Shown here in pieces: positions 15,880-26,166 of a stretch of DNA of 64,000 bases (positions within the stretch are counted from its first letter, which is position 1; each line of letters begins with the position of its first letter). This DNA comes from Pseudanabaena galeata CCNP1313 (GTDB lineage: Bacteria; Cyanobacteriota; Cyanobacteriia; Pseudanabaenales; Pseudanabaenaceae), in contig NZ_CP112874.1 in NCBI RefSeq assembly GCF_029910235.1, forward strand, positions 1,364,001-1,428,000. Direction: 5' to 3'. Position numbers and translations under genes: made by a program. The notes beneath the pieces were generated by a model that had not been told where the DNA came from, ran no database searches, and saw only the letters and a program-made list of their open reading frames with translations.

Positions 15880-17406
15880 CTAGATCAAATCGCCCAACAA
15901 ACTCGATACTTCGCCTTGCATATTGGTGCGATTGTCGTCGTAGAGCATGAGGGTATCAAGTTTTTTGTGTCGGGATAGTTTCTGGACTTTGCGAACATTG
16001 CCGTTAGTTGCATCAAGGGCTGCTGTAATCGCAGAATGGCGGATACGGTGGGGAGACATTTTTTTAGTAATTCCTGAGTCTCGTGCAAGTTGATCGACAA
16101 TTTGGTAAATCGCTGTGCCAGTCAATCGATGCCCGTGATTGACTGGATCGAGAGATTGAAATAAGGGGCGATCGCTATTTCTTGTCTTAAGTTGAGATAA
16201 CCAGTCTTGAATTGCGTTAGTCGTTCCCATACTAAGACTAATGAGACTCTTTTGAGAGCCACGTCCCTTACCTAAAATTTGGAGCGATCGCCCTTCAAAA
16301 TCAAAATCACCGATATTCGCACTAACAACTTCATTACGACGTAGGGCATTGTCCCAAAGTAGTCGCAAAATCGCAAAATCACGTATGCCTTTGATAGTAG
16401 TTCTATCTATTTGTAACAGCATTGTGCGAATACCATCGGGCTTAATCCCCGTCGTATCGCGATAGGTTTGGACTGTCTCAGTTTGGATATCATCGAGGTT
16501 CCAATTGCATTTCCCTAACTTAGCGGCGAAGTTTACCAAGGACTTGAGAGCAGACAAGCGACGGTTAATTGTCGATTCCTTTAAGCCTTGAGCTATTAAG
16601 TCGGATTTATATCGCAACACGATCGAGATCGCCTCAAATCGATTTAACTGCAAAAACTGAGCAATCACTGGCTCCGTGGGCTTCTGTCCATAGGCGGCAA
16701 GAAAAAAGTAGCGCAAATCCTTCTCATAGGCGCGTCTGGTGTTAAGACTCCGTTTGTCGGCTAGGAGAGAAGTGAGAATGTCTGGATTAAATTCTGTTAG
16801 AGCATAAGGAACCTTGCTTATTTGAGTCTCACTAGTATCTAAATAAGTCCTATTTTGATTCTCATATTCTAATCTTAATACACTGCTTGATCTCAACTGA
16901 GTCTCATGCGTCGCAACTATAGTCTTATTTTGTGTCTCAAAATCTTGATTTAAGGCGTGTTTTGCTTGGCTAAATCTCAATTGTTCGGGAGCGATCGCGT
17001 CGCTAAGCCCTGCATTAGCTGCGGCGCGTTTGACTATGCCATAGATGGCAGTTCCCGTCAGTCTATGACCATAACTCGCACGATCCAGAGATATAAATAG
17101 TGGTGCTTGAGAATCTTCCTCGTTCTCAGCTTCAATATGAATCAAATTTAGCCAGTCTTGTAGTGCGTTGGCTGTGTCCAAACTAAGACTAATAATTTCC
17201 GCTTGATTTTGTTGCCCCTGACGTTTATAGCGACGCTGAACCTGAAGCGATCGCCCCCTATAATCCAAATCGCCAATGCTAATTGCCGCTACCTGTTGCC
17301 GCTTTAGCGAATTCTCGATCAATAATTGCAAAATTGCATAATCGCGTTGACCTGCTAATGTGTGGCGATCGCAAGCCATGAGAATTCGCTTTAGGTTATC
17401 TACCAT
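15880..17406 (-). CDS. Tyrosine recombinase with duplicated, partly decayed catalytic domain
   Basis: The 508-residue protein has two related catalytic-type regions. The C-terminal one (about 320-508) is complete: Arg356 (ALRRNEV), Lys380, His453-x-x-Arg456 (HRIRH), His480 and nucleophile Tyr489 (LMLYDDN). It is preceded by a SAM-like core-binding domain (about 220-315). The N-terminal region (1-150) aligns to the same domain (AGQRDYAILQLLIENSLKRQQVAAISIGD, HRLTGTAIYGIV) but has Lys for the first Arg and lacks the box II His and the Tyr end. The domains are joined by a linker with a short repeat. It could be a chromosomal integrase or a xenologous cyanobacterial recombinase; no att site was recognised. 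Confidence 0.85.
   Translation of the reverse strand: MVDNLKRILMACDRHTLAGQRDYAILQLLIENSLKRQQVAAISIGDLDYRGRSLQVQRRYKRQGQQNQAEIISLSLDTANALQDWLNLIHIEAENEEDSQAPLFISLDRASYGHRLTGTAIYGIVKRAAANAGLSDAIAPEQLRFSQAKHALNQDFETQNKTIVATHETQLRSSSVLRLEYENQNRTYLDTSETQISKVPYALTEFNPDILTSLLADKRSLNTRRAYEKDLRYFFLAAYGQKPTEPVIAQFLQLNRFEAISIVLRYKSDLIAQGLKESTINRRLSALKSLVNFAAKLGKCNWNLDDIQTETVQTYRDTTGIKPDGIRTMLLQIDRTTIKGIRDFAILRLLWDNALRRNEVVSANIGDFDFEGRSLQILGKGRGSQKSLISLSMGTTNAIQDWLSQLKTRNSDRPLFQSLDPVNHGHRLTGTAIYQIVDQLARDSGITKKMSPHRIRHSAITAALDATNGNVRKVQKLSRHKKLDTLMLYDDNRTNMQGEVSSLLGDLI
16814..16944. repeat. Two imperfect ~50-bp direct repeats within the recombinase linker
   Basis: Two segments, each about 50 bases and starting in TGAGTCTCA, read TTGAGTCTCACTAGT...TCCTATTTTGATTCTCA and CTGAGTCTCATGCGT...TCTTATTTTGTGTCTCA. 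They encode the similar peptides FETQNKTIVATHETQL and YENQNRTYLDTSETQI. This looks like a local duplication inside the gene. Confidence 0.65.
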
Positions 17407-19359: not shown

Positions 19360-20322
19360 ATGGGAAAAGTAATAGCAACAGTAAATATGAAAGGTGGGGT
19401 CGGTAAAACCACCTTAACTGTCAATATTGCCACCTGCTTGGCGAAAATCCACCGCAAAAAGGTTTTAGTCGTTGATTTAGATACCCAAATCAGTGCCACG
19501 CTTAGCATGATTTCCCCAGCCGAGTTTGCTAAATGTCGCAAAGAAAATCGCACCTTGCGAAATCTAGTTAGTCAGGCGATCGCGCGTTACGGTGTCCAGA
19601 TTAATGACCCAGAAGAAAAAGTCTACCAAATCAAAGATCTCGTAATTCCCCATGTTTGCAAAGTTCAAGGCTTAGATCTCTTAGTTGGTGATATCGATCT
19701 ATACGATGAGTTTCTAGTGTCGGAAATGCTCTATAACCGATCGCTCCTATACGAAGAAAAGCAAACCTTTCAGCAAACTTGGAGTAAGTTCGAGCAGACT
19801 TTAATTAAAGGAATCCTTGCTCCTGCGCTGAAAAGTTATGACTTTATCATTCTCGATTGCGCCCCTGGTTATAACCTAATTACGCGCAGTAGTATTGTGG
19901 CAAGTGACTTTTATATAATGCCCGCCAGACCTGAGCCTCTGTCTGTAGTCGGTATCCAGCTATTAGAAAGACGTATTGAACGACTACGTGAAGTCTATCG
20001 AGAAGACAATTCGGTTAATATTCAACTCTTAGGTATTGTGTTCAGCATGTCGGCTGGCTTTACCCTGAGCAGATATTACCAAAAAGTAATGGATCGAGTG
20101 GCGGCGGACTTTAGCACCGCCAAGATTTTTAAAACTAAAATTCCCAATGATGTCAACATCGCTAAAGCTGTAGATAATTTCGTTCCTGCTTCCTTAGCAA
20201 ATCCCAATTCAGGCGGTGCAAAAGCTTTTGCTGAAGTAACTATCGAGCTTTTGAAAAAGCTAGAAGTTTCTCTAGGCAAGAAAGAACAAACCTCAAGATT
20301 AAGTCTAGTTGATTTAGAATAA
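19360..20322 (+). CDS. ParA/Soj-family ATPase heading a five-gene operon
   Basis: The 320-residue P-loop ATPase has the deviant Walker A motif KGGVGKTT (near residue 11), VLVVDLDTQ (Walker A-prime) and FIILDCAPG (Walker B), as in chromosome and plasmid partition ATPases. It carries an insertion of about 60 residues between these motifs (YGVQINDPEEKVYQIKDLVI onward) that standard Soj proteins lack. I chose the ATG at 19360; a TTG at 19342 also opens the frame. A nuclease-like gene starts 31 bases downstream. No ParB gene is adjacent, so ordinary partitioning is not the obvious role. Confidence 0.88.
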   Translation: MGKVIATVNMKGGVGKTTLTVNIATCLAKIHRKKVLVVDLDTQISATLSMISPAEFAKCRKENRTLRNLVSQAIARYGVQINDPEEKVYQIKDLVIPHVCKVQGLDLLVGDIDLYDEFLVSEMLYNRSLLYEEKQTFQQTWSKFEQTLIKGILAPALKSYDFIILDCAPGYNLITRSSIVASDFYIMPARPEPLSVVGIQLLERRIERLREVYREDNSVNIQLLGIVFSMSAGFTLSRYYQKVMDRVAADFSTAKIFKTKIPNDVNIAKAVDNFVPASLANPNSGGAKAFAEVTIELLKKLEVSLGKKEQTSRLSLVDLE

Positions 20323-20353
20323 TACTAAGTTAAGAGAGGTTGAAAGAATAAAG

Positions 20354-20905
20354 TTGGCTACCGCAGCAGAATACGAAAGTATCATCAAGTCGCTGCAATG
20401 GGATGGATTAAGATCTCTATGGTATGAAATAGCAAAGCGTGATACCCCAAGTTGGGAATCTGGCAAGGCTTTTGAATACTTAGTAATACGGGCATTTGAA
20501 CTTGATGGAGCAGAGGTACGATATCCTTATAAAGTTAGGCTATTTGAGGAAGAAATTGAGCAGATCGATGGAGCAGTCCACATCGCTGGTTTTTCCTGTC
20601 TTGTAGAAAGCAAAGACTTTACAGAAAAGAAAGTTGATATCGCACCGATAGCTAAACTTCGTAATCAACTTTTACGTCGTCCCATAGCAACAGTTGGCTT
20701 AGTATTTAGTAGAACTGGGTTTACAGATCCTGCCCGCACTCTTTCCCGTTTTTTGTCGCCACAAGCAATTCTTCTATGGGATGGCGACGAGATAGAGTAT
20801 GCGTTAGACAATGAAAAACTTTGTGAACTACTAATCTTAAAATATCGTGTATGTATAGAAGATGGACTACCTGATTACAACATTACAACGAGGAATATTC
20901 CATGA
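20354..20905 (+). CDS. Mrr-like PD-(D/E)XK restriction endonuclease
   Basis: The 183-residue protein has the order of acidic residues expected for a restriction-endonuclease fold: Glu41 (GKAFEYLVIRAFEL), Asp72 (EQIDGAVHIAGF) and Glu85-x-Lys87 (CLVESKDF). A following stretch (LRNQLLRRPIATVGLVFSRTGFTDPA) resembles Mrr_cat proteins. The start is a TTG at 20354 after AGAGAGG, since no ATG fits. The stop overlaps the next gene by four bases (ATGA). DNA cleavage is inferred from the motif only. Confidence 0.72.
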   Translation: MATAAEYESIIKSLQWDGLRSLWYEIAKRDTPSWESGKAFEYLVIRAFELDGAEVRYPYKVRLFEEEIEQIDGAVHIAGFSCLVESKDFTEKKVDIAPIAKLRNQLLRRPIATVGLVFSRTGFTDPARTLSRFLSPQAILLWDGDEIEYALDNEKLCELLILKYRVCIEDGLPDYNITTRNIP

Positions 20906-21450
20906 TTGCATATATTATCTGTGAAGGAATTGATGACAAAAGAATACTACAAACTCTTCTACCAGAAGCTTCTTTAAATCAAGTAGAAATTGTTGTTGGT
21001 GGTGGAATATCTTCTGTAAAATCAATTGCACGTTCTCTAGTTGTTCGTAGACAAACGCCAGTTGTAATAGTTGTTGATTCGGATTCTACAGTACCAGAAT
21101 TAGTTAAAATGCGTATTGGAGAAATTACCGACATAGTTGAAAGTGTATCTGTTAATACGCCTGTCAAAGTAGTACTTTTTGTGCCTGAGATAGAAATCAT
21201 CTTTTTCCGAGATCCTCTATTACTGTCAAGGTTGTTAGGATATGACCCTTCTCAGGAAGAGCTTAACTTGGCAATTTTGCAACCACGTAAAGTATTAGAA
21301 CAATTGCTTGCTAAATCTGAAAAAGTTTGTGATCGGAGTCAAATCATTAACCAAATAGCTAATGAAAATATTAACTATTTAAGAAACGATCCTGCTATTC
21401 AAGAGCTAATTGATTTTCTTCAGTCAGTCAATAAACTTGTCAAAGTTTAA
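20902..21450 (+). CDS. Toprim-like protein
   Basis: The 182-residue protein resembles a stand-alone Toprim domain: CEGIDDKRIL with the catalytic-type Glu8, VIVVDSDS with Asp59 and Asp61, and FVPEIEIIFFRDP near residue 95, a pattern seen in OLD/RloB-like Toprim proteins. Toprim domains bind Mg2+ and act in nucleic acid cleavage or primer synthesis. It is translationally coupled to the Mrr-like gene by a 4-base overlap. There is no ATPase domain in the same chain. Confidence 0.65.
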   Translation: MIAYIICEGIDDKRILQTLLPEASLNQVEIVVGGGISSVKSIARSLVVRRQTPVVIVVDSDSTVPELVKMRIGEITDIVESVSVNTPVKVVLFVPEIEIIFFRDPLLLSRLLGYDPSQEELNLAILQPRKVLEQLLAKSEKVCDRSQIINQIANENINYLRNDPAIQELIDFLQSVNKLVKV

Positions 21451-21457
21451 TAAAGCA

Positions 21458-21871
21458 ATGAAAAATCTGCTTTTTAATTTAGGCTTAGCAACACTTTCCA
21501 CCCATGAGTTAGATGCGGTTACTCAGTCAGAGTGGCATCTTCTCTATATTTTGAACAACCTCCCAGAACAAATTGCAGCAAACACTTTTGTAGTTCTTCA
21601 CGTTCCATTATTTACGATTATTTTTGGGTTGGGATTTAACGATAATCCTAAAGTTAAGAAGTGGGCAAGAATTATCTTTAGCTTGTTTTTGATTATTCAT
21701 GCAGGATTACATAAAGCCCTCGAAAATCATCCTCTATATACTTTTAACTCACTGATTTCAAAATGTTTGATTTTTGGAGCAGGATTAATTGGTTTGCTGT
21801 ACTTAATGGCTCTAATTGGGGAGAGATTTGCTTACCCCACAAAATCTGAAACCCAAGACTCCGTTAATTAA
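21458..21871 (+). CDS. Small His-rich membrane protein (DUF6713-like)
   Basis: The 137-residue protein has three or four membrane helices and conserved-looking polar residues within them: STHELDAV at the N-terminus, VVLHVPLF, and LIIHAGLHKALE. The layout resembles small HXXEE/DUF6713-type membrane proteins; the family name is tentative. It begins 7 bases after the Toprim gene and ends 3 bases before the next frame, so it belongs to the same transcript. The His/Asp/Glu set could bind a metal. Confidence 0.65.
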   Translation: MKNLLFNLGLATLSTHELDAVTQSEWHLLYILNNLPEQIAANTFVVLHVPLFTIIFGLGFNDNPKVKKWARIIFSLFLIIHAGLHKALENHPLYTFNSLISKCLIFGAGLIGLLYLMALIGERFAYPTKSETQDSVN

Positions 21872-21916
21872 AAAGTGCTACATCACATTATCTCGTTGAA
21901 CTATGACCTTAAAACT

Positions 21917-22105
21917 ATGCATAATCATATCCAAAAATTAGAAAGCGATCGCCTATCATCTACACAAAAAACGAAACCTTGTCATCACTGTGAAGGCAAA
22001 GGCTACATAGAACTGCGAGACTGTTCTGGAGAAATTCAGCGAGAAGAAAATTGCTCATTTTGCCATGGGAAAGGAAAAATTGAATCTGATAATTTTGCGG
22101 AGTAG
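21917..22105 (+). CDS. Small CXXCXGXG zinc-ribbon protein
   Basis: The protein of about 62 residues carries two DnaJ-type zinc-binding motifs, CHHCEGKG and CSFCHGKG, flanking ELRDCSGEIQREEN. Such stand-alone DnaJ-like zinc fingers occur as small accessory or chaperone-like proteins. The start is uncertain: a GTG at 21875, three bases after the preceding stop, would add 14 residues. It is the last gene of the five-gene run. Confidence 0.68.
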   Translation: MHNHIQKLESDRLSSTQKTKPCHHCEGKGYIELRDCSGEIQREENCSFCHGKGKIESDNFAE

Positions 22106-23103: not shown

Positions 23104-23442
23104 ATGGCTGATATTCGTGAAGTAACAGGTGACCCAAATGAATTCTGGAGTGAGCTAAGCTGGGCTGATCTCACCAGTGACGAGCAAGCGGTCTGGACTC
23201 AATTAGGTTGGACTGAGGAAAGCTGGGATGAGGAGGAGGATTTTCCTGAATGGGATGACTTGTCTAGCGAAGATAAAAAATTGTGGGGTATCCTCGGTTG
23301 GAGTCAGGCTAGCTGGGAAGGAGAAGATGACATTCCTGAATCAGCCGAAAAGCTTTGGGAAGATCTGACCAGTGAAGAACAAGCAGCCGCAACGCAGCTT
23401 GGCTATACTCCAGAAAAATGGGACGACGAGGAAACCGACTAA
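23104..23442 (+). CDS. Acidic tryptophan-rich triple-repeat protein
   Basis: The 112-residue, strongly acidic protein consists of three copies of a unit of about 34 residues with the pattern W-x-x-L-t-s-e-x-q-x-x-x-x-x-L-G-W/Y-x-x-x-x-W. Examples are ADLTSDEQAVWTQLGWTEESW, DDLSSEDKKLWGILGWSQASW and EDLTSEEQAAATQLGYTPEKW. Acidic linkers (DEEEDFPEW, EGEDDIPES) separate them. There is no signal peptide or membrane segment. The pattern suggests small helical repeats for protein binding. I cannot assign a function. A composite repeat follows its stop. Confidence 0.72.
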   Translation: MADIREVTGDPNEFWSELSWADLTSDEQAVWTQLGWTEESWDEEEDFPEWDDLSSEDKKLWGILGWSQASWEGEDDIPESAEKLWEDLTSEEQAAATQLGYTPEKWDDEETD

Positions 23443-23848: not shown

Positions 23849-24754
23849 TTACCATGCATCAATAATTTTCTGCATAGTCTTTTCAGCAAGTCCCTGTACA
23901 TTAATAATTACATCTTGAATTGACAGAAATTTCTGATTTGGTTGCTGTAATCTTAGTTCATCAATAGGACGAGCAAACTTGATATTAGTTTTCGCTGATT
24001 TTGCTAACTTATTCTGCAATTCAGCAAAATTAAGGTTATTCAAGTCATCAAGTACCTGTAAGACTTTTGGATTGGTATTGTCAATATTTTTAGCTTTACT
24101 TGTTGTTTTAGATTTAGGAGTAGTTTTAGATTTGGGTGTGGTCTTAGATTTACTAATTTTTTCTGGTAACGGTTCTGGAACTAGATTAGTAGGTTGATTA
24201 CTAGTGCCAAGGACTGTATGAATAGGAACAAGGGATAATGACTGACGAAAATCGGTTAAATGAGCATCCAGTTGTTTGGTCACTTGACCTACAATTGTTT
24301 GCAAACTAGCACTGATTCGTTCTTCAATGGTTTTCTCGATCGCCGCAGTTAGTTTTTGCTCTAATCGATTGGCGATCGCTTCTTCGATTTTTGCTAAATC
24401 TGGAGAGGTTTCATGATTCACTTGTGGAGGACTGGGAATAGGTGTTGGCGATCGCAAAAAATTATATTGCTCAAGAATCGTTGACTCTAAATCAGGTGGT
24501 ACGACATAGGCGCGGATTGCTGTAAACTGCTCATCTATTTCCTGCGCTTTAATTGCTGCGTAATATTCAAAATGACCTTTCAAAACTTCAAAAGCGATCG
24601 GTGAAACTTTGCGGACAAGTATAGGACTAACGGTATCACCAGCCTTTAAAAATAAGTTAGCAAGATTCTCAACTTGATGGGCTGGAAATTGAGAACTAGA
24701 TACTGCGGGCGGTGTGATTGTATCGAGATCGATGGAAGAAGTTAATAGACTCAT
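23849..24754 (-). CDS. ParB-like protein paired with the nuclease-ParA fusion
   Basis: The 301-residue protein has a ParB/Srx-like N-terminal domain (about 15-95: GDTVSPILVRKVSPIAFEVLKGHFEYYAAIKA). In it the usual GxRR motif is replaced by GHFEYY. A coiled-coil-like middle (about 115-180), a linker with three KSKTTP repeats, and a C-terminal helical segment (LSIQDVIINVQGLAEKTMQKIIDAW) follow. There is no classic ParB helix-turn-helix domain. It overlaps the upstream ATPase gene by four bases (ATGA), so the two are translationally coupled. Confidence 0.7.
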   Translation of the reverse strand: MSLLTSSIDLDTITPPAVSSSQFPAHQVENLANLFLKAGDTVSPILVRKVSPIAFEVLKGHFEYYAAIKAQEIDEQFTAIRAYVVPPDLESTILEQYNFLRSPTPIPSPPQVNHETSPDLAKIEEAIANRLEQKLTAAIEKTIEERISASLQTIVGQVTKQLDAHLTDFRQSLSLVPIHTVLGTSNQPTNLVPEPLPEKISKSKTTPKSKTTPKSKTTSKAKNIDNTNPKVLQVLDDLNNLNFAELQNKLAKSAKTNIKFARPIDELRLQQPNQKFLSIQDVIINVQGLAEKTMQKIIDAW

Positions 24755-26166
24755 GCACTTAATCCTACTTTTTCAAGAACTTCATTAGCTAACTCTTCAA
24801 ACTCGGCAGCAGATATCGAGTCGGGCTTAAAGTCAAAAATTGACTTAGGATCAGGAATTTGGCGATCGCCTTCAAATATAAAATTATCAATAGCCCTTGA
24901 TAAGTCTTCACGCTGAAAAATTCTGGTTTCCAACACAGGGAATCCATAACGCTCTTCGACAACTTTTTCTTGTTTAGGCAAAGTTGCTTTAATGTAATTA
25001 GCATTGGTCAAGATTTTGGAAGGTAATACACCTAAAATCGAGATCGCAGGTTTATTGATGAAAGTACGAAACTCATCAATTTCCTCAACAAAGTTTTTGA
25101 CATTGCGTAAACCTTCATTAGCAAAAGGTTTGAGGTCGGAGGGAATGATCAAATAATCACAGGCGATTAGTGCAATTTTGGCATAGAGATTTAGAGATGG
25201 CGGCGTATCAATCAGAACTACATCATAGTCATCCTTCACCAGTTCCAATTTCTTGACTAGATGCGTTTTAGAACTATCCTTATCAACTAATCTAGCCTCT
25301 TGCCAAATCAAATTAATATGCGCGGGAATGACATCGACTGGGGGATAAGTAAAGGTACTCTTGAGTGCGATTTCAGGAATATAGTTAGATTTGGGATAGA
25401 AGACAACATTATAAATATTGCTATCTTTGAGCGTATCTTCTTCTTCAGTATCAAACTTCATTAAACCTGCGGCATAGGTAGTATTCGCCTGACTGTCGAG
25501 GTCAATAATGAGAACTTTTAACCCCTTACGACTAATGGCAGCAGCGAGATTAATGGTAGTCGTGGTTTTACCGACACCACCTTTATTGTGATAGATCGCG
25601 ATCGTTTTCATGATTCTTACTTTTGGGTTAGGAATAGCAATTGTAGTTTGTAGAGATTGTGGCGGCGTGATATCAACTGATTGCTGTGGAGGTGAACTGG
25701 ATTTATCGGCGGAACTAGCATTTTTAGGTTTAATTTCAGCTAATTTATCTCTGCCAATAATATCCTTGATTTTTTCGATATTGTCGGTAATTTCTGTACC
25801 TTGGCATTGAAAATTTAGCTTGACCTGATCGCCCACAAGCTCATAAATCCGAAAATCCTTACCATTGGTTAACACCCCATACACAACATGTAAGCGCGTT
25901 AAATAACGACTCAACCGTCGCACATGGGAGTCAAGATTGTGCTTCGGGTGTTTCGCCTCCATCACCACACAAACCTTGGGCGCAGAGTCAGTAATGCTCG
26001 GAAATACCTGAGAAGTCAATGCTAAAAAATCTAAGCGAATGCTCCCTAAAGCAACTTCCTGATGCCATTTACTAGCGTCATAACCAAGTGTAGGCAAAAG
26101 ATACTGGACAATTAATTTACTTTCGACTTCGCTCTCATTGCGACAAAGCTTTGGATTGAAACTCAC
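24751..26166 (-). CDS. Fusion of an HsdR_N-type nuclease domain to a ParA ATPase
   Basis: The 471-residue chain joins two domains. Residues 1-130 resemble the N-terminal nuclease domain of type I restriction subunits: ESEVESKLIVQYLLPTLGY, then IRLDFLAL with Asp46, then CVVMEAKHPK with Glu70-x-Lys72, and VYGVLTNGKDFRIYEL. After a Ser/Pro/Gln linker (about 150-180), residues 186-471 form a ParA ATPase with HNKGGVGKTTTT (193-204), VLIIDLDSQANTT and VVLIDTPPS. An internal Met186 could start a separate ATPase. The start overlaps coaX by 32 bases. The PD-(D/E)XK residues appear intact, so cleavage is possible. Confidence 0.82.
   Translation of the reverse strand: MSFNPKLCRNESEVESKLIVQYLLPTLGYDASKWHQEVALGSIRLDFLALTSQVFPSITDSAPKVCVVMEAKHPKHNLDSHVRRLSRYLTRLHVVYGVLTNGKDFRIYELVGDQVKLNFQCQGTEITDNIEKIKDIIGRDKLAEIKPKNASSADKSSSPPQQSVDITPPQSLQTTIAIPNPKVRIMKTIAIYHNKGGVGKTTTTINLAAAISRKGLKVLIIDLDSQANTTYAAGLMKFDTEEEDTLKDSNIYNVVFYPKSNYIPEIALKSTFTYPPVDVIPAHINLIWQEARLVDKDSSKTHLVKKLELVKDDYDVVLIDTPPSLNLYAKIALIACDYLIIPSDLKPFANEGLRNVKNFVEEIDEFRTFINKPAISILGVLPSKILTNANYIKATLPKQEKVVEERYGFPVLETRIFQREDLSRAIDNFIFEGDRQIPDPKSIFDFKPDSISAAEFEELANEVLEKVGLSA

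Follow-up and report, generated by a model that had tools for sequence, protein, structure and literature searches.

In the defence systems Gabija and PARIS, the Toprim domain is coupled to an ATPase. A different partnership, which is the subject of this text, occurs in the cyanobacterium Pseudanabaena galeata CCNP1313, in which a gene for a FokI/Mrr-type nuclease is followed by a gene for a stand-alone Toprim protein. Both genes lie in a window of 64,000 nucleotides (assembly GCF_029910235.1, contig NZ_CP112874.1, positions 1,364,001 to 1,428,000 of the forward strand), which is the whole stretch that was analysed and to which the positions below refer. An initial annotation of this window, made from its letters alone, had joined the two genes with three neighbours into a single system. 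Comparison across genomes suggests, on balance, that the nuclease and Toprim genes are a module by themselves, one that probably moves horizontally, serves in conflict (defence) and uses the Toprim protein to control a nuclease effector. As a two-gene module of defence or toxin-antitoxin type, it is rated as a new pairing of known domains. A full-text search of open-licence literature retrieved no recognised description in which a gene for an Mrr/FokI-type nuclease is accompanied by one for a free-standing Toprim protein, in agreement with the initial annotation, to which no described system with this set was known; excerpts of PMC10568477, PMC10952713, PMC3702460 and PMC8649781 have no bearing on it.

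Among described proteins, the window Toprim protein is most like OLD nucleases and GajA of Gabija, with which it shares a predicted Toprim fold with a helical insert; some of its acidic residues can also be matched by motif to OLD metal ligands. However, it does not have the N-terminal ABC ATPase of OLD, and its 182 amino acids match the OLD C-terminal region along their whole length. It is paired instead with a FokI/Mrr-type nuclease, and its site is often degenerate in relatives. In addition, the ten proteins scanned around it in the window include no helicase, whereas GajA of Gabija has the UvrD-like GajB beside it. Excerpts of PMC6755086 give E400, E404, D455, D457, T506, E508 and K562 as the residues used by class 2 OLD enzymes, and the Toprim domain of YbjD, an OLD protein of E. 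coli, is reported to be dispensable for anti-phage phenotypes (PMC13261556). PARIS (AriA-AriB) resembles the pair in that a stand-alone Toprim is half of a two-gene system, but there AriB, the Toprim, acts as the effector and the ATPase AriA holds it (excerpts of PMC12409363). In contrast, the partner of the window Toprim is a nuclease and not an ABC ATPase, and the adjoining window ATPase belongs to the ParA/AAA_31 type and does not match AriA. Conservation suggests that the roles may be reversed with respect to PARIS. On the nuclease side, the likeness is to the small subunit of R.BspD6I and to the cleavage domain of FokI, which like the window protein are bare catalytic PD-(D/E)xK domains (183 residues in the window protein vs 186 in the small subunit), but the partner of the small subunit is a nickase with DNA-recognition domains whereas that of the window nuclease is a Toprim protein. 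Mrr-type (type IV) enzymes share with it an Mrr_cat domain with the PD-(D/E)xK residues; unlike them, the window nuclease has no room for a separate DNA-binding domain and has a Toprim gene downstream. Profiles of the defence candidates HEC-01B and MAD4 (PADLOC/NCBIfam) match the Toprim proteins weakly and mostly in part (HEC-01B with 5.6e-5 for the window protein and 1.4e-6 at best in the family; MAD4 with 6.6e-4), and the PADLOC models gave no match to the window nuclease at E<=1, its relatives giving weak matches in at most 3 of 49 sequences per model. In the portions of a HEPN survey that bear on these domains, a shared N-terminal domain is described that is fused in some proteins to a Toprim and in others to an Mrr-like nuclease, as well as a HEPN family whose gene lies in an operon with that of a ParA/Soj ATPase (PMC3710099); neither arrangement equals the nuclease-Toprim pair.

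The nuclease gene (20354-20905, + strand; 183 amino acids) begins with a TTG codon 31 bases after the upstream ParA gene and overlaps the Toprim gene (20902-21450, + strand; 182 amino acids) by the four bases ATGA at 20902-20905. Its product matches Mrr_cat with 2.9e-7, as do 45 of 49 nuclease homologues at E<=0.1, and modelling presents it as a bare catalytic PD-(D/E)xK domain of the FokI/BspD6I/Mrr type. The residues E41, D72, E85 and K87 are invariant in 49/49 homologues, a count that applies to intact nucleases because broken and contig-cut copies were mostly excluded: near-duplicate, broken and contig-cut copies were mostly removed from 57 nuclease and 65 Toprim sequences, giving alignments of 49 and 51 rows, respectively, and L118, a duplicate of L117, was omitted as well. 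Since family-profile sequence searches of solved structures returned no match for the nuclease and, for the Toprim protein, only matches at E 0.2 or worse, a comparison of folds was needed. The single-chain AlphaFold2 models have predicted local distance difference test (pLDDT) values of 93.2 for the nuclease and 93.1 for the Toprim protein. In the VIA lists, which are second looks at Foldseek hits, the nuclease model is nearest to the nicking subunit (Z 13.4) and the small subunit (2p14; Z 12.8) of BspD6I, AF1548 (12.9), FokI (12.3) and HindIII (11.9), followed by the nuclease parts of Can2/Card1-type CRISPR effectors (8.7-11.5) and EndoMS/NucS (8.4-8.9).

The window Toprim protein on its own matches only DUF3226, at 3.8e-4 and under the Pfam cut-off, and the Pfam models matched most often at E<=0.1 among the 51 relatives are DUF3226 (14), OLD-like_TOPRIM (12), DUF4276 (8) and Toprim (4). 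Its assignment as a Toprim is based on these family-level profile matches and on the predicted fold, which spans the whole protein. The model resembles the C-terminal regions of the OLD proteins from Burkholderia and Xanthomonas (Z 12.6-13.3; for Burkholderia OLD Z 13.3, root-mean-square deviation 3.5 and 166/182 residues aligned), Thermus OLD (11.6), Pyrococcus PH0156 (10.4) and GajA (9.4-10.2), in keeping with the resemblance to Gabija or OLD systems that the initial annotation had seen. Lumazine synthase also appears in this list with Z of about 8.4-9.3; kinship with it was considered and set aside, the likeness being taken as a common arrangement. By motif mapping, the window protein appears to carry a complete OLD-type set, that is, E-x3-[DE] (E8 and D12), DxD (D59 and D61) and the later acidic E98. 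Counterparts of these ligands in the relatives were assigned by motif spacing and alignment and not by superposition, with D or E accepted at positions 12 and 98 only; counted in this way, E8 is kept in 46/51, D12 in 46/51, D59 in 47/51 and D61 in 41/51 Toprims. All five residues and the helical insert are kept together in 31/51 and not in the other 20, some of which are mild cases (D61 changed to E in L106; only a short insert in L087, L115, L116 and L117). The partner nucleases of all 20 have intact sites. Because so many paired Toprims have lost part of the OLD-type site, Toprim catalysis seems dispensable for the partnership.

This observation bears on the possibility that the pair is a restriction enzyme of two obligate subunits, similar to type IV enzymes or to BspD6I, in which the Toprim protein recognises or nicks DNA, the nuclease adds the second cut without any inhibition, and the nuclease is lost once a strain gains DNA modification or the benefit ends. 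The nuclease fold, nearest to the BspD6I subunits, AF1548 and FokI, and the Mrr_cat match are what such an enzyme would have; the small subunit of BspD6I, according to parts of PMC6261011, acts only with the large one, and no methyltransferase occurs among the ten window neighbours scanned. Nevertheless, a scheme of two cuts would probably not hold across the family because the 20/51 Toprims without the full set stand beside nucleases that look intact. In addition, Toprims whose nuclease is dead or missing show no sign of relaxed selection, their pairwise ratios of non-synonymous to synonymous divergence (dN/dS) being 0.16-0.36 against 0.19-0.27 for paired Toprims, although much of this divergence may predate the loss. 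We consider a two-subunit enzyme rather unlikely, and the control of a nuclease effector by the Toprim protein the better account.

That the two genes belong together is indicated by their recurrence. A scan of 84,980 species genomes by short conserved nuclease motifs matched 107 stretches, of which 69 were confirmed; divergent or motif-less copies were missed owing to the reliance on these motifs. A Toprim sequence lies downstream of the nuclease on the same strand in 69/69 loci, within 70 bases in 68 and with the same 4-base overlap in 51, the exception being L126, in which 1.2 kb separates a nuclease remnant from the Toprim. The pairing exceeds chance because it holds in every one of these loci. 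The nuclease and Toprim genes are a conserved pair, with sites that look intact in the window as the initial annotation had stated, and the scattering of homologues with no conserved adjacency of the two genes, which the same annotation had named as evidence against its proposal, was not what was found. A nuclease search of 292 cyanobacterial genomes gave matches in 23, which include distant Mrr-type proteins, and a Toprim adjoins 18 of the 19 matches with at least 50% identity, the nineteenth being a 35-amino acid remnant in G039. Three proteins with about 30% identity, a length of ~310-330 amino acids and no Toprim (L054, L056 and L057) were treated as other Mrr-type proteins. The 49 nucleases placed in a tree come, by record title, from Cyanobacteriota, Bacteroidota, Chloroflexota, Planctomycetota, Acidobacteriota, Myxococcota, Thermodesulfobacteriota, Pseudomonadota and Altimarinota; many of these records are metagenome-assembled genomes, and titles can mislead. 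Across 48 loci, nuclease identity and Toprim identity are correlated (r 0.88), and 22/45 splits are common to the two trees, as compared with a mean of 0.2 after shuffling; therefore, the two genes have largely been inherited together.

The distribution of the pair is patchy: nuclease sequence is present in 5/26 genomes of the genus, broken in 2 of them, and the Toprim in 19/292 genomes of the phylum. Three plasmid records (two from Leptolyngbya, one from Rhizobium) carry the nuclease at four places, and a Toprim adjoins it at the three places that were read. A search of plasmids with a single Toprim sequence gave nothing at 1e-5, so searches of this kind under-count, given that the plasmid Toprims beside the nuclease escaped the query. 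On the Rhizobium plasmid (L037), annotated neighbours of the pair include 7-cyano-7-deazaguanine synthase, PfkB kinase and endonuclease III.

Loss affects the two genes unequally. The Toprim profile has 21 matches in the 292 genomes, 13 beside an intact nuclease and 8 beside a broken or missing one: a stop in G030, truncations in G033, G074, G278 and the second copies of G048 and G245, and no nuclease trace within 1.5 kb in G149 and G199. In the same genomes, a broken Toprim lies beside 0/12 evaluable intact nucleases (Fisher p 0.03, with relatives that are not independent). The 69-locus scan gives a similar picture, with 58 intact nucleases, none of which has a broken Toprim (two Toprims are cut by contig ends), and 11 non-intact nucleases, of which 8 have an intact Toprim, one is cut by the contig start (L120) and two are at loci damaged in both genes (L124 and L125). 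The lesions differ in nature: an internal deletion in G316 leaves approximately the first 15 and the last 17 codons of the nuclease, and a putative insertion element with 21-base inverted ends sits in the nuclease of G308, where it is seen at two contig ends (L129 end, L177 start), the Toprim being intact in both genomes. About 17 loci combine a broken nuclease with an intact Toprim (G030 and L095 counted once), plus the frameshifted L035 on a Leptolyngbya plasmid, and the reverse state, an intact nuclease with a broken Toprim, was not seen among the evaluable loci.

A dangerous effector with a controlling partner fits these data because the nuclease either keeps its active site or is broken and was not found intact without its Toprim, while the Toprim may have a degenerate site and persist after the nuclease is gone. 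The pattern fits a toxin with its antitoxin or a gated immune effector. A plain toxin-antitoxin or addiction module, with the nuclease as toxin and the Toprim protein as antitoxin, residing on plasmids and islands and having no phage trigger, would likewise show two small adjacent genes whose putative toxin is never intact without the partner, as is seen here (0/58, with 8/21 Toprims lacking an intact nuclease). The overlapping two-gene format, the one-sided loss of the nuclease, the orphan Toprims that are kept, the three plasmid records and a hotspot shared with toxin-antitoxin genes all speak for it. However, the putative toxin gene comes first and the Toprim model covers the partner from end to end and shows no DNA-binding domain beside it, and such a module seems to us improbable. 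In the preferred reading of a controlled defence effector, the nuclease would act through its FokI/BspD6I/Mrr-type catalytic domain, presumably on DNA, and the OLD-type Toprim devoid of ATPase would restrain and/or aim it, probably within a physical complex, and let it act upon a trigger such as infection by a phage or perhaps arrival of a plasmid. That the Toprim protein restrains the nuclease, rather than merely aiming it, is what we infer.

Several considerations weigh against this reading. The one-sided loss may partly reflect gene order, with the nuclease first, and kinship among Nostocales together with a more sensitive Toprim search may explain another part of it; some broken nucleases may be assembly errors, such as frameshifts in draft or metagenome assemblies. 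The genome G039 retains 35 amino acids of the nuclease but gives no match to the Toprim. Neither a sensor domain nor an ATPase is apparent in the pair, the phage and viral collections hold no relatives of it, and many pairs in other taxa lie among housekeeping genes. Moreover, single ligand changes in OLD did not discernibly affect cleavage in vitro in the experiments covered by excerpts of PMC6755086, so a degenerate Toprim site is no proof of inactivity. The company of the pair in other taxa is mixed: 189 open reading frames (ORFs) of 51 loci were called, 150 listed and 137 scanned, ORFs of more than 900 amino acids and loci after L109 being left out. Counted with no control set, Pfam matches include AAA_21 (5), ABC_tran (4) and Uma2 (4), as well as housekeeping families, and the 25 PADLOC families listed include mad3 (6), mad8 (4) and AriA (2/137 proteins). 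The largest cluster of neighbours, ABC-transporter-like by eye, occurs in 14 loci at scattered places.

Within the genus, the pair occupies a site at which the cargo changes with the strain. This variable interval (20323-21916) extends from the ParA-like ATPase gene (19360-20322, + strand; AAA_31 1.2e-32), a conserved left flank outside the module, to the gene of a CXXCXGXG protein (21917-22105, + strand), which is the right flank. Twenty-six ParA sites, 24 from the genus and 2 from the family, were compared. The CXXCXGXG gene is found downstream of ParA on the same strand in 19/26, all of the genus (19/24), its match starting 24 to 6449 bases after ParA; of the seven other sites, three have less than 700 bases of contig left, G282 has ~2.1 kb, and G309, G300 and G322 have none within 7 kb. 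Eight of the 19 intervals with both flanks contain the pair (or its Toprim) or other defence or toxin-antitoxin-type genes: the pair in G000 and G315, the Toprim with the deleted nuclease in G316, a 252-amino acid protein matching PDC-M15A (7.8e-11) together with PIN in G306, a near-identical protein by eye in G302, CHAT and PIN in G319 (the latter by likeness to the PIN of G306), AbiTii (3.3e-18) in G312, and Phd and YoeB in G193. The interval of G308, cut by a contig end, begins with the nuclease. The 11 remaining intervals of the 19 are either short or occupied by small membrane proteins, a 120-amino acid protein, DUF6713 or, in G313, a GT-D-like and a methyltransferase-like protein. Such company suggests conflict with mobile elements, and the defence role presumed in the initial annotation fits a hotspot shared with AbiTii, CHAT, PIN, PDC-M15A-like and Phd-YoeB genes. 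In the genus, the module would thus share the interval between ParA and the CXXCXGXG gene with other cargos that can take its place.

The same data bear on a role in DNA repair or recombination, in which the pair would do housekeeping work. Toprim and PD-(D/E)xK nucleases both occur in repair, the nuclease model resembles EndoMS/NucS (Z 8.4-8.9), and many loci are surrounded by housekeeping genes. Against such a role stand the patchy presence (5/26 genomes of the genus; Toprim in 19/292 of the phylum), the repeated inactivation and the exchange at one site with AbiTii, CHAT and toxin-antitoxin cargo, which together leave a repair pair very improbable.

The history of the site also separates the pair from the three genes with which it had been grouped. 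The run comprises, apart from ParA and the pair, the DUF6713 membrane protein gene (21458-21871, + strand; Pfam 8.5e-21), which starts 7 bases past the Toprim gene and appears to be an accessory of the site, and the CXXCXGXG gene, whose ATG start lies 45 bases past the membrane protein gene and which has an alternative GTG at 21875 (3 bases); in the nearest relative (L152) the ORF starts at the equivalent of the ATG. The five ORFs of the initial annotation, with their coordinates and spacings, are all present in the sequence, its residue numbers (E41, D72, E85 and K87 in the nuclease; E8, D59 and D61 in the Toprim protein) are correct, and the profile searches that it suggested returned ParA/AAA_31 and Mrr_cat for the first two proteins, a weak match of Toprim type for the third, DUF6713 for the fourth and, for the fifth, a DnaJ-type CXXCXGXG match (DnaJ_CXXCXGXG 1.7e-6, under the cut-off of the Pfam profile scan). 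A promoter and terminator scan gave 5 promoter-like sites as compared with 10.5 in shuffles and 4 terminator-like sites as compared with 3.2, with no site on the + strand between 20323 and 21450, a result that is uninformative. The grouping of the five genes into one system in the initial annotation is not supported. The window ParA is present in 25/26 genomes of the genus at E<=1e-20 and in 78/292 of the phylum at E<=1e-60, and most genomes of the genus have it but lack the pair; it lies ~0.09 to 3.1 Mb from the pair on one contig in five genomes (G022, G064, G068, G245 and G251), and in G311, of the genus, the pair is elsewhere in the genome and the ParA site is without it. In the loci read outside the genus, neither DUF6713 nor the CXXCXGXG protein nor a close copy of the window ParA was found beside the pair. 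DUF6713 is at the site in 7/24 loci of the genus, and in 4 of these the pair is absent; the CXXCXGXG gene is a flank of the site irrespective of the pair. Of the loci read, only that of the nearest relative, Phormidium tenue FACHB-1050 (L058), also has the five genes together, and it has an extra 120-amino acid ORF before the CXXCXGXG gene. Synonymous divergence (dS) between the window and this relative reaches 0.72 and 0.80 in the two genes of the pair, as against 0.18-0.31 in the PsbP-like, ParA, DUF6713 and CXXCXGXG genes and 0.02 in Nif11, so the pair and its flanks did not share one history. As judged from these comparisons, the ParA, DUF6713 and CXXCXGXG genes are most probably bystanders, and the unit is the nuclease-Toprim pair.

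The idea of a five-gene system, in which ParA would be the ATPase of a split Gabija- or OLD-like machine, is contradicted by these comparative data and is hardly credible to us. It could appeal to the tight same-strand spacing in the window, to the same genes in the nearest relative and to other ParA-family ATPases near the pair, one in Cylindrospermum sp. NIES-4074 (L093:11388-12449, ~290 bases downstream) and one on a Leptolyngbya plasmid (L036, 2.3 kb downstream). However, the window ParA is an old gene with the distribution just described, the L093 protein does not match it at E<=1e-4, and that of L036 is distant (23.5%). ParA as the missing ATPase of the pair was rejected because of its distribution independent of the pair.

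Other features of the site and of its surroundings deserve mention. In G193 (L154), a Tn3-like element with a 993-amino acid transposase-like ORF and a recombinase-like ORF, as recognised by eye, splits DUF6713 ~1.4-6.1 kb after ParA. In G307 (L173:2724-3671), a gene with Mrr_cat_2 and ResIII that matches models of type IIG restriction enzyme-methyltransferases stands directly after the CXXCXGXG gene. ParB is absent from the run in the Pfam scan; a weak ParB_N-like gene (E 0.054) at 23849-24754 (- strand) lies beside a different ParA fusion (24751-26166, - strand), in which a nuclease domain like HSDR_N of type I restriction enzymes (HSDR_N_2 4.8e-7) precedes a ParA-type ATPase on the same chain; in the nearest relative, this nuclease region is incomplete. 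The window further encodes a 508-amino acid protein with, by eye, two tandem tyrosine-recombinase-type halves (15880-17406, - strand) and a 112-amino acid acidic protein with repeated W-x2-LGW-type motifs, also by eye (23104-23442, + strand).

In all, a bolder version of the defence reading can be put forward tentatively, as one that we think will more probably fail than hold. The pair might be an immune module spanning phyla in which the Toprim logic is inverted, so that an OLD-type Toprim that has no ATPase and is often degenerate serves as sensor or keeper and releases a bare FokI-type nuclease onto DNA upon infection; a Toprim without its nuclease would stay under selection, perhaps guarding against incoming copies. 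If this were true, the control scheme would be simpler than those of Gabija and PARIS, as the nuclease is the conserved partner and no ATPase takes part, and the pair would offer a clear test of whether Toprim folds can be regulators rather than enzymes. The pair is small (1.1 kb) and easy to clone, and the interval between ParA and the CXXCXGXG gene is a fixed place in the genus for finding further defence genes.

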